A stretch of DNA of 64,000 bases, from contig NZ_PSTZ01000003.1 in assembly GCF_002931555.1 (NCBI RefSeq), positions 124,001 through 188,000 on the forward strand, given 5' to 3'. The position numbers were made by a program, and so were the translations under genes. Below, in pieces: positions 59,843-62,440 of the stretch. Every line of letters begins with the position of its first letter. Positions within the stretch are counted from its first letter, which is position 1. The notes beneath the pieces were generated by a model. It was given only the letters and a program-made list of their open reading frames with translations. It ran no database searches and had not been told where the DNA came from. This DNA is from Pseudoclavibacter sp. RFBB5. GTDB lineage: Bacteria > Actinomycetota > Actinomycetes > Actinomycetales > Microbacteriaceae.

Positions 59843-59956
59843 GAGTTCCCCTTCGACGGTGACGAGTAACGGCCAGCATACCGAGACCACCCTGACGGCT
59901 GTCAGAGCAGGTGCTGCATTCGAGCGTTGTCGGTGGTGCATCCGTACAATCCGGGT

Positions 59957-60796
59957 ATGACGGCACTGACATACGCGTTCCTCGGCGGCGGCAACATGAA
60001 CGGCGCGATCCTGCGCGGGCTGCTGGATGCGCCCCTCGGCGAGGGCGCGCGTGTCCACGTCACGACGAGGTCGGCGGCTTCGGCCGCCGCCGCTGAGCGC
60101 GACGATCGGGTCTCGACGACCGCGCTCGAGAACGACCCGCGGGCGAACCTGGCCGCAGTCGAGCGCGCGGACGTCGTCGTCCTGGGCGTCAAGCCCTATC
60201 TCATCGGGGAGCTCCTCGACGAGATCGCGTCCTCGCTCAAGCCGGATGCCGTGGTCATCTCCGTGGCGGCCGGTGTGCGCCTCGAGAGCCTGGCCGCCCG
60301 GCTGCCGGAGGGCTCCCAGATCGTCCGATCGATGCCGAACACGCCCGCGAGCATCGGACTCGGCGTGACGGGTCTCGCCGCCAACGCGTCGACCAGCGAG
60401 GAGTCGCTCGCCGTCGCGGTCGCGCTCTTCGAGAGCGTGGGACGCGTCGCCACCGTCGGCGAAGACCGCATCGACGCGCTCGCGGCTGTCTCGGGCTCTG
60501 GGCCCGCGCACGTCTTCCTGCTGATCGAGCAGTACCTCGAAGCGACGAAGCGCCTGGGCTTCGATGAAGACCTCGCCAAGGAGCTGGTGGTCGGAACGTT
60601 CGAGGGGGCCGTCGGCATGGTCGTCCGCGACCCGGACACCGAACCGGCCGAGCTGCGCCGGCGCGTGACCAGCCCCAACGGCACCACCGAGCGCTCCGTC
60701 GCCGAGCTGCAGGACGGCGACCTCGCGGGCCTCTTCGAGCGGGCGTTCGCCGCCAACCAGCGACGCTCGGCCGAGCTCGCCGCGGAGAACTCCTGA
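59957..60796 (+). CDS. proC: Pyrroline-5-carboxylate reductase
   Basis: 279 residues. NAD(P) motif AFLGGGNMNGAILRGLL, VVVLGVKPYLIGELL, VRSMPNTPASIGLGVTGLAA, and the C-terminal signature ALAAVSGSGPAHVFLLIEQY with VTSPNGTTERSVAEL. Last step of proline synthesis. ATG exactly 6 nt after TACAAT (59945-59950), one of the clearest leaderless promoters in the window. Confidence 0.95.
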   Translation: MTALTYAFLGGGNMNGAILRGLLDAPLGEGARVHVTTRSAASAAAAERDDRVSTTALENDPRANLAAVERADVVVLGVKPYLIGELLDEIASSLKPDAVVISVAAGVRLESLAARLPEGSQIVRSMPNTPASIGLGVTGLAANASTSEESLAVAVALFESVGRVATVGEDRIDALAAVSGSGPAHVFLLIEQYLEATKRLGFDEDLAKELVVGTFEGAVGMVVRDPDTEPAELRRRVTSPNGTTERSVAELQDGDLAGLFERAFAANQRRSAELAAENS

Positions 60797-60886: not shown

Positions 60887-62440
60887 ATGAGCGGTCGGAA
60901 GCATGTCTTCACGGAAGACCTGTACCTCGTGCTCGGCGTCTCCCGCAGCGCGTCGTTGGAGGAGATCCGACGAGTCGGGCGCGCGAGGCAGCGGGAATCG
61001 CATCCCGACCTCGGTGGAAGCTCCGACGACTTCGTGCGGGTCCGCCTCGCGGTCGAGGTGCTCACCGAGGAGAGCACTCGCCGAGAGCATGACGCCTGGC
61101 TCTCCGGCGGGGGCTCGCGCCGCGTCCGCTCACAGCAGCGAGCTCAATGGGCTCCGACGAGCAGACGCTCGGCGGGTGGCGGCGGCCGATTCCGCACGCC
61201 GCCTCGCTCCGGGGCGACGAAGGAATCCGCCACCTCAGCCCCGCGCCGCAGCGCGCACGCGGAACCCGCGACCCGCGACGCCCCGCCCCCTGCCCGCATC
61301 CCAGCCCAGAACTTCGACGTCCGACGCATGGCCTGGTTCCGCACGCGCTGGCCGGAGCACCCCGTGTACTGGCCGCCGGCGGCGGCCGCTCCGCGTCCGT
61401 TCACGCGGCGCGAGCTGACGGCAGTCTCGGTGCACGCGGCCATCGTCGTCATCGGCGCCCTCCTCCTCGTGCTCGACGTGTCGCTCGCGCGGCTCACCGT
61501 TCCGACGTTCGGGCCTGGCGCGGAGCCGACGATGTGGCCCGCCGTCCTCCTCTACGTGGGGTTGAGCGCGGCCTGGCTCGTCCTGCGGCTCAGGGTCCGC
61601 GCGAATCGCTGGGCACTGACCATGTGGCTCGCGACCCTCGTCATCGCCATCGCGGCGAGCGTGCTGTCGGCGACCCTCGGCGTCATGTCCCTGTTCGCCA
61701 CGACGGCAGGCATGCAGAACCCGGCCTTCGCGAGCCTGCTCGTGCAGGCCGCCATCTACCTCGCCGCGGCCGTGTCCGGCTACTTCGCGTGGTCGAGTCT
61801 CGCGCAGCGGCGCATCGCCGTCACCAGGGAACGGCTGCTGGTGCAGCTCGCGAACGAGTCAGCCCCGCCTGCCGCTGGTGGCAGGCGGGTCTGGGGTGAA
61901 CCAGGCCAGACGGCCATGGATGCGGGCGGCACTGCCGGCGGAACGAACCCCATGCGCGCCTTCCTCGCCCAGCGCTCCGTCGGCGAGCCGCTCGCTCAGC
62001 TTCTCCGCATCCCGGGCGTTCGCGTCGTGCACGGGCTGCGCGTCCCCGGCCAGAATGCCGGTTCGATCGCGCACGCCATCGTCAGCGGACGCAGGGTCGC
62101 GCTCGTCAACGACGAGCTGTGGGCGCCCGGCACGTACGGCATCTCGCGTGACGGTGAGCTCACGCACAACGGCGTCGCCTTCTCCTCACCCGCGGCCGAG
62201 TTCCCGCACGCCGTCGAGCGCTTCCACGAGCTGTTCGGGGAGATGTCCGAGGTTCGCGGCTGGATGACGGTCGTCGCGGAACGCGAGGGGCCCCTCGAGG
62301 TCGACAACGCGCTCACCTGGCAGCGAGTTCGCCTCGCCACGACGGAGTCGCTGCTGCGCGAAGTCGGCGACTGGCTCGCCGGCGACGGCAACCGGGTCGA
62401 CCGGCTGCTGCTGCGTGACCTGATCGCGCACAAGCGCTGA
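60887..62440 (+). CDS. J-domain membrane protein with a degenerate NERD-like C-terminal domain
   Basis: 517 residues. A J-domain at residues about 8-70 has its HPD tripeptide intact (RESHPDLGGSSDDF). A Ser/Arg/Pro-rich linker follows (70-150), then four hydrophobic segments between about 185 and 305 (AAIVVIGALLLVLDVSLARL, WPAVLLYVGLSAAWLVLRLR, ATLVIAIAASVLSATLGVMS, and LVQAAIYLAAAVSGYFAWSS). The C-terminal 150 residues resemble a nuclease-related NERD domain (VRVVHGLRVPGQNAGSIAHA, VALVNDELWAPGTY), but the expected Asp-His and Asp-x-Lys are replaced (IAH, VNDE). It may recruit DnaK to the membrane (inference). RBS GGGAGGGG. Confidence 0.72.
   Translation: MSGRKHVFTEDLYLVLGVSRSASLEEIRRVGRARQRESHPDLGGSSDDFVRVRLAVEVLTEESTRREHDAWLSGGGSRRVRSQQRAQWAPTSRRSAGGGGRFRTPPRSGATKESATSAPRRSAHAEPATRDAPPPARIPAQNFDVRRMAWFRTRWPEHPVYWPPAAAAPRPFTRRELTAVSVHAAIVVIGALLLVLDVSLARLTVPTFGPGAEPTMWPAVLLYVGLSAAWLVLRLRVRANRWALTMWLATLVIAIAASVLSATLGVMSLFATTAGMQNPAFASLLVQAAIYLAAAVSGYFAWSSLAQRRIAVTRERLLVQLANESAPPAAGGRRVWGEPGQTAMDAGGTAGGTNPMRAFLAQRSVGEPLAQLLRIPGVRVVHGLRVPGQNAGSIAHAIVSGRRVALVNDELWAPGTYGISRDGELTHNGVAFSSPAAEFPHAVERFHELFGEMSEVRGWMTVVAEREGPLEVDNALTWQRVRLATTESLLREVGDWLAGDGNRVDRLLLRDLIAHKR

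Follow-up and report, generated by a model that had tools for sequence, protein, structure and literature searches.

A J-domain, predicted membrane helices and a degenerate NERD-like domain joined in a conserved protein of Pseudoclavibacter, and its J+NERD relatives in the Actinomycetes

The gene at positions 60887..62440 (+ strand, stop codon included) of the window, by which is meant the whole 64,000-nucleotide stretch of Pseudoclavibacter sp. RFBB5 that was analysed, specifies a 517 amino acid protein in which a J-domain is followed by four predicted membrane helices and by a pseudo-NERD domain. Sequence comparisons establish this domain order and its conservation in the genus, the descent of the C-terminal domain from NERD, the loss of the catalytic residues and the purifying selection that acts on what is left. 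The wider pattern of J+NERD proteins, 54 of which were collected in three groups, is a stronger result than the single protein.

J-domain

The reading frame begins with ATG, directly 5' of which lies GGGAGGGG. The J-domain (60917..61093, + strand; residues 11-69) was recognised by the Pfam DnaJ model with an E-value of 6.9e-8, above the cut-off, and carries the HPD motif at 61001..61009 (residues 39-41), in agreement with the original prediction of an intact HPD J-domain. That prediction had proposed the conservation of HPD as a check, and the motif is invariant in 10/10 genomes of the genus and in both loci seen of the sister genus (L026 and L122). The single other Pfam match to the 517 amino acid protein is DUF6057 (E-value=6.7). 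Among the NCBIfam models it matches the N-terminal part of those of DnaJ type, none near its cut-off, and a search of its own genome with the protein as query returned itself and one plain DnaJ. AlphaFold2, run on the whole protein with four near-identical rows, gave a mean pLDDT of 39.9; the J-domain alone was modelled with confidence (block pLDDT 70-89).

A J-domain with HPD is what characterises class C J-domain proteins, and the window protein possesses it. DnaJ and CbpA (classes A and B) have C-terminal substrate-binding domains, and class A also a zinc centre. The window protein shares the HPD-bearing J-domain with them but matches their N-terminal J part alone; neither the zinc centre nor the C-terminal peptide-binding domain was found in it using Pfam and NCBIfam, and its reading as a plain DnaJ or CbpA was rejected on these grounds. 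An annotation or frame artefact was also rejected, since the same open reading frame exists in 10/10 genomes of the genus. A phage origin was dismissed as well: phage records gave no match, and viral contigs contained no relative of the window protein or of L037, a relative with the same domain order. With L039 as the query, viral contigs yielded 14 loci, 13 of which matched within residues 4-68 (the J part) only and one as far as residue 139.

Linker and membrane region

An Arg/Ser/Pro-rich, fast-evolving linker (61112..61402, + strand; residues 76-172) leads to the membrane region (61409..61795, + strand). Here the Kyte-Doolittle plot revealed four hydrophobic stretches, bearing out the earlier claim of a four-helix region; the helices, delimited by eye from these stretches, lie at approximately residues 175-200, 216-235, 241-270 and 281-303, and are also present in the low-confidence AlphaFold2 model of the whole protein. 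At the same threshold the other rows of the genus show 2-4 stretches, some long enough for two helices. The lysyl- and arginyl-residues number 6, 1, 2, 0 and 5 from before the first helix to after the last, the positive charges standing on the J and NERD sides. Since the loop charges alternate, the positive-inside rule would put both ends in the cytoplasm, and the J-domain and the C-terminal end are therefore both probably cytoplasmic. Between the membrane region and the NERD-like domain lies a WGEPG motif (61892..61906, + strand), which is common to a protein of a Brachybacterium plasmid (WGEPGET).

Descent of the C-terminal domain from NERD

The C-terminal domain (61949..62437, + strand; residues 355-517) was not matched by the Pfam NERD model (PF08378), even at an E-value of 10 with the C-terminus alone. 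The ancestry becomes visible through intermediates. Screening of plasmids with tblastn matched two records, Brachybacterium avium (37% identity, E-value=2e-11) and Gordonia pGKT3 (33%, 7e-7), the latter annotated as a nuclease-related domain-containing protein. The Pfam NERD model scores the Gordonia protein at 4.5e-5, above its cut-off, and the Brachybacterium open reading frame at 0.0017, below it. BLAST to P0003 gave 37%. When profiles were compared with each other, the window clade reached a probability of 66.5 (pair E-value 5e-5) against four canonical NERDs and one of 97.3 against a set of seven NERD rows.

The strongest support for descent through intermediates comes from five relatives with the same domain order (L037 and L051-L054). 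All five exceed the Pfam cut-off for DnaJ as well as that for NERD, keep the DH..DxK residues, and have 2 to 4 hydrophobic stretches each. The window domain is thus judged from its sequence to be NERD-derived, like the members of PF08378; it differs from them in having no Pfam match and in the replacement of the catalytic Asp, Asp and Lys. The NERD-like C-terminus that had been proposed from the sequence stands, and a C-terminus unrelated to NERD was rejected on the BLAST, profile-profile and same-order evidence. The AlphaFold2 model of the C-terminus alone, run without three aligned orthologues, was of very low confidence (mean pLDDT 38.9).

Loss of the nuclease residues

The catalytic set of NERD nucleases consists of Asp-His and a downstream DxK, and Asp-His ... 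Asp-x-Lys is invariant in the seven NERD rows that were aligned. In the window protein Ala395-His396 (62069..62074, + strand) occupies the position of Asp-His and Asn408-Asp409-Glu410 (62108..62116, + strand) that of DxK. The first Asp is consequently Ala395, with His396 retained, the second is Asn408, and the Lys is Glu410, exactly the changes (IDH to IAH, DxK to NDE) from which a lost nuclease had been proposed. Across the genus (10/10 genomes) Ala or Pro stands in place of the first Asp, the Lys position holds Glu, Gln or Tyr, and His396 is kept; the second Asp is retained in 6/10. In the sister genus (L026, L122) the first Asp is Ser and the Lys is Glu or Arg, and L026 has also lost the His of the pair. 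We infer from these replacements that the window domain would have no nuclease activity.

Conservation and gene neighbourhood

The gene was found in 10/10 genomes of the genus examined, its own included, and the named orthologue records (Pseudoclavibacter sp. AY1H1, P. helvolus and P. terrae) show 89-97% identity. Within the genus, the five orthologues further removed from the window protein are 63-74% identical to it in the J-domain, 30-33% in the membrane part and 61-68% in the pseudo-NERD; the corresponding values for L026 are 63, 25 and 56%. Conservation is lowest in the membrane part; the identity of the pseudo-NERD to that of the window ranges from 56 to 99% across the orthologues.

Nei-Gojobori dN/dS ratios, calculated for seven pairs among five close orthologues, were 0.03-0.06 for the J-domain and 0.02-0.08 for the pseudo-NERD, against 0.11-0.24 in the membrane part. 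By this measure purifying selection on the dead domain is strong and similar to that on the J-domain, and the ratios led to the rejection of a decaying pseudogene. As the Lys has been lost and the domain is nevertheless conserved with a low dN/dS, the fold would seem to be retained for a purpose other than DxK catalysis.

Directly upstream on the same strand lies proC (pyrroline-5-carboxylate reductase, assigned by Pfam; 59927..60796, + strand), an arrangement found at 10/10 loci of the genus and 2/2 of the sister genus.

Distribution of J+NERD proteins

With the window protein as query (E-value 1e-8), a search of 60 genomes from 60 genera of the family recovered one full-length relative (G029) besides the protein itself. 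The C-terminal profile reached further. In these surveys, which count the window's own genome where it belongs to the set, it matched 10/120 genomes of the family (the J-TM form in four, from the genus and the sister genus), 6/99 of the order (all six with J+NERD), 7/148 of the class (five of which have NERD proteins without a J-domain), 5/60 of family f7, whose members are closest in layout to the Brachybacterium protein, and 77/100 of family f6, which we take to resemble the Micrococcaceae.

The 54 J+NERD proteins of this wider search fall into three groups. Group (a), with the order J-TM-NERD, unites the window clade (12 rows, all dead) and five proteins of f7, all with intact DH..DxK. Group (b) comprises soluble J-pseudoNERD proteins of f6, 30 in 30 genomes, all with Pfam DnaJ and no membrane stretch; Met, Phe or Leu takes the place of the catalytic Lys in these 30, which represent one protein from each of 30 of the 77 matching genomes and ranked high against a profile built partly of Lys-less rows. 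Downstream of the J-pseudoNERD gene a SpoU-type methyltransferase gene was seen at 10/10 f6 loci (L106-L114 and L119), in one case with a small open reading frame in between; the SpoU-type assignment comes from Pfam on one of the loci.

Group (c), a second soluble group, was met by chance among the J-domain matches of the family search with the window protein. Of eight places beyond the window and G029, seven are J+NERD (6 genomes, 6 genera) and the eighth (L028) is, by eye, a plain DnaJ. Pfam recognises DnaJ in 7/7 and NERD at 0.007 or better in 7/7, above the cut-off in 3/7, and Glu or Arg replaces the catalytic Lys. Five of the seven have no hydrophobic stretch; in the other two a single stretch lies inside the NERD part and is more likely a core strand than a helix. 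No conserved neighbour touches the gene at the seven loci. The C-terminal profile missed this group, so further groups may also have been missed.

A convincing membrane stretch is absent from 37 of the 54 proteins (groups b and c). Pfam DnaJ is present in all those scanned, 46/46 in one set and 8/8 in another. The Pfam and NCBIfam matches to the 46 proteins consist of J-domain-type models, NERD in five and one stray DUF7027 (0.008); no model for a J-NERD fusion is among them. An HPD in the open frame was the criterion for calling a row J-fused, and the invariance of HPD in 46 rows is thus partly by construction; it is unselected for the genus and for f6, where 30/30 fetched places have HPD. 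The open frames of L046, L123 and L128 also contain an HPD, which was put down to chance and not taken for a J-domain; Pfam DnaJ is absent in L046 and L123. Twelve of the 14 J-less rows, all except L127 and L128, were scanned with Pfam, which detected DnaJ in none.

Loss of the catalytic Lys and phylogeny

The catalytic Lys is absent in 49/54 J-fused rows versus 1/14 rows without a J-domain in the same frame, a count that includes L006 among the 14 though its J-domain sits in a neighbouring frame; since the rows share ancestry and those of f6 come from the upper end of a ranking, these figures describe a pattern and not a rate. The one J-less exception (L049:1153-1980), from another family of the class, is a NERD protein with hydrophobic stretches and Glu for the catalytic Lys. 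Degenerate membrane NERDs, of which SmdA of Staphylococcus aureus is an example, may be commoner.

The final tree was built on 68 rows, five motif columns having been removed beforehand. The weak NERD-like L126 and L129 (in which, by eye, the Lys looks retained), duplicate places and an antisense frame of L030, which had got into a seed profile, were left out of the trees. Group (c) forms a clade (100/100) among the canonical NERDs, apart from (a) and (b), on branches that are themselves weak (80/39 and 87/16). The f6 proteins form a clade (100/98). L006, the NERD half from the plasmid, groups as sister with the window clade (itself 100/98), with support of 98/91 in the first tree and 100/96 with group (c) included. 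Four changes of the Lys state fall on the starred branches of the tree, one on J-less L049.

With group (c) included, a single clade of the 54 J fusions plus L006 was rejected (p-AU 0.019), as was one of the 49 Lys-less J fusions (p-AU 0.003). Without group (c) neither a single J-fusion clade (p-AU 0.36) nor a single clade of the 41 Lys-less rows (p-AU 0.15) was rejected, so that two losses within this lineage are only favoured. The groups tested were named after the sequences and trees had been seen, which weakens the p-values, and long branches are many in both trees. We read from these alignments and trees a minimum of two fusions; the Lys would have been lost at least twice and perhaps three times.

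Intact forms and their surroundings

At L006:978-2320, close to the beginning of the record of the linear Brachybacterium avium plasmid, J-TM and NERD occupy two consecutive open reading frames in different frames where relatives have a single protein. The split may be real, programmed or an error.

In G326 (L103:6104-14999) the intact J-TM-NERD gene ends some ten bases before a helicase-nuclease gene of 1470 amino acids with a weak PD-(D/E)xK match and RNase H-like matches, downstream of which are a PDC-S14 candidate defence gene and a D12-type type II adenine methylase. This setting resembles a defence island; the link to defence is a lead only. A DUF4062 gene lies 2.6 kb from the intact gene of G328 and a patatin gene 1 kb from that of G341. 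PADLOC gave no match for the window or the Brachybacterium plasmid proteins, and a known defence gene was rejected for the window protein on this result. It named no J-TM-NERD at L052-L054, with one weak partial match at L053 outside NERD, and among the scanned neighbours at the intact loci L104 and L105 it found an ABC1-type kinase alone, with weak matches.

In G093 and G308 the intact gene adjoins open reading frames with a common N-terminal peptide. At L101:246-10110 seven such frames share a peptide like SNxNRVQAGIPEGGQ(F/W)SE..KARP before different bodies, in a run broken by one frame without the peptide and by the J-TM-NERD gene; some frames of L102 carry it too. The peptide might serve a mobile element as a tag for sorting or packaging. 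Both genomes also possess a J-less intact NERD gene elsewhere (L042 and L056).

Proposed function and alternatives

The nearest parallels, drawn by analogy, are DjlA as a membrane J-protein and SmdA as a membrane protein with a degenerate NERD. DjlA of Escherichia coli, a membrane-anchored J-protein, has a single helix at its N-terminus and the J-domain at its C-terminus, and lacks NERD. It resembles the window protein in having a J-domain and a membrane anchor; the DjlA model matches 33/46 relatives at 0.01 but not the window protein.

SmdA belongs to an organism of another phylum than that of the window. It is described as a septum-enriched cell-division factor, membrane-anchored, with a partial, degenerate NERD predicted to be cytoplasmic (PMC9040797). 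By that description it is like the window protein in layout and in the degeneracy of its NERD, and unlike it in having one helix and no described J-domain (PMC9040797). Mutation of conserved NERD residues partly or fully abolished the overexpression phenotype, and a pull-down with SmdA recovered proteases, foldases and chaperones (FtsH, PrsA, SpsB, ClpC, ClpB and HtrA1), the relevance of which the authors leave open (PMC9040797). They stated in 2022 that, to their knowledge, the function of NERD had never before been studied in bacteria (PMC9040797). For a J-NERD fusion itself no paper was found in a literature search whose coverage mostly excludes subscription papers and preprints.

J-proteins stimulate Hsp70, deliver substrates to it and give it a cellular location (PMC3486835). 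The reading towards which we lean, with moderate confidence, is that the window protein is a specialised membrane-anchored recruiter of DnaK whose pseudonuclease serves as a binding or targeting module for a client or nucleic acid. The four helices would fix it to the cytoplasmic membrane, leaving both the C-terminal domain and the J-domain on the cytoplasmic side; the latter would stimulate DnaK, a partnership that we infer, through its HPD; the non-cutting NERD fold would bind a specific client at the membrane or an adjacent nucleic acid; and DnaK would act on the client or complex so bound. The pairing appears to have arisen, and to have lost the nuclease, more than once, and so it probably brings DnaK to something that the dead nuclease recognises. 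The SmdA findings (PMC9040797) incline us, by analogy, to a DnaK-recruiting membrane adaptor with a client-recognising pseudo-NERD. The earlier suggestion, by which Hsp70 would be localised to the membrane for quality control of the envelope or of nucleic acids, is a plausible one. Since the membrane part is the least conserved and 37/54 proteins have no convincing one, the common function may not hinge on anchoring.

The main rival is nucleic-acid tethering: the pseudo-NERD would bind DNA or RNA without cutting, link the nucleoid or RNA to the membrane, and leave it to DnaK to free or remodel the complex. NERD descent speaks for this, as do the retention of the Asp-His pair in 38/55 rows (J-less rows included) and the 10/10 f6 loci with the gene upstream of a SpoU-type methyltransferase gene. 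The window clade, however, has lost the first Asp, and its conserved neighbour is proC rather than a nucleic-acid gene. For SmdA, a connection with the nucleoid is offered by the authors as speculation; they also say that its NERD may have nothing to do with the nucleoid (PMC9040797). We consider a tether fairly unlikely.

Still bolder would be to regard J+NERD as a chaperone-gated nucleic-acid module invented repeatedly in the Actinomycetes, the mobile copies being DnaK-controlled nucleases and the chromosomal ones non-cutting, DnaK-recruiting adaptors on nucleic acid or its complexes, anchored or not; this generalisation is unlikely.

It is quite improbable that the dead chromosomal copies are domesticated antagonists of, or immunity proteins to, horizontally moving DnaK-controlled nucleases with plasmid or defence functions, represented by the intact J-TM-NERDs. 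The patchiness of the intact forms (5/60 genomes of f7), the frame pair on a linear plasmid, the intact gene adjoining PDC-S14, type II methylase and helicase-nuclease genes, and the position of the window clade as sister to the plasmid NERD half would all fit; but that sister relation is weakened by long branches, and the dead forms occur in 10/10 genomes of the genus. In f6, moreover, where C-terminal matches were obtained in 77/100 genomes, the 30 examined are all dead and no intact J-fused form was seen, while PADLOC had no match for the window or plasmid proteins and only the weak ABC1-type kinase among the neighbours at L104 and L105.

Altered catalysis through other residues, such as His396, Asp409 and Glu410, is very doubtful indeed: it can draw on the retention of His396 in 10/10 genomes of the genus and on the acidic character of the DD/NDE stretch in the close orthologues, but the replacements vary among orthologues (Glu, Gln, Tyr or Arg for Lys; Ala, Pro or Ser for Asp) and L026 has lost the His too.

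Little work has been done on what NERD domains do. A J-domain has been placed on NERD in apparently at least two separate lineages, and the nuclease residues have been lost there, which offers a direct handle on the domain. The pattern predicts that NERD would be a binding fold that is worked on with DnaK. Proteins of one and the same domain order, some intact and some dead, can be compared.
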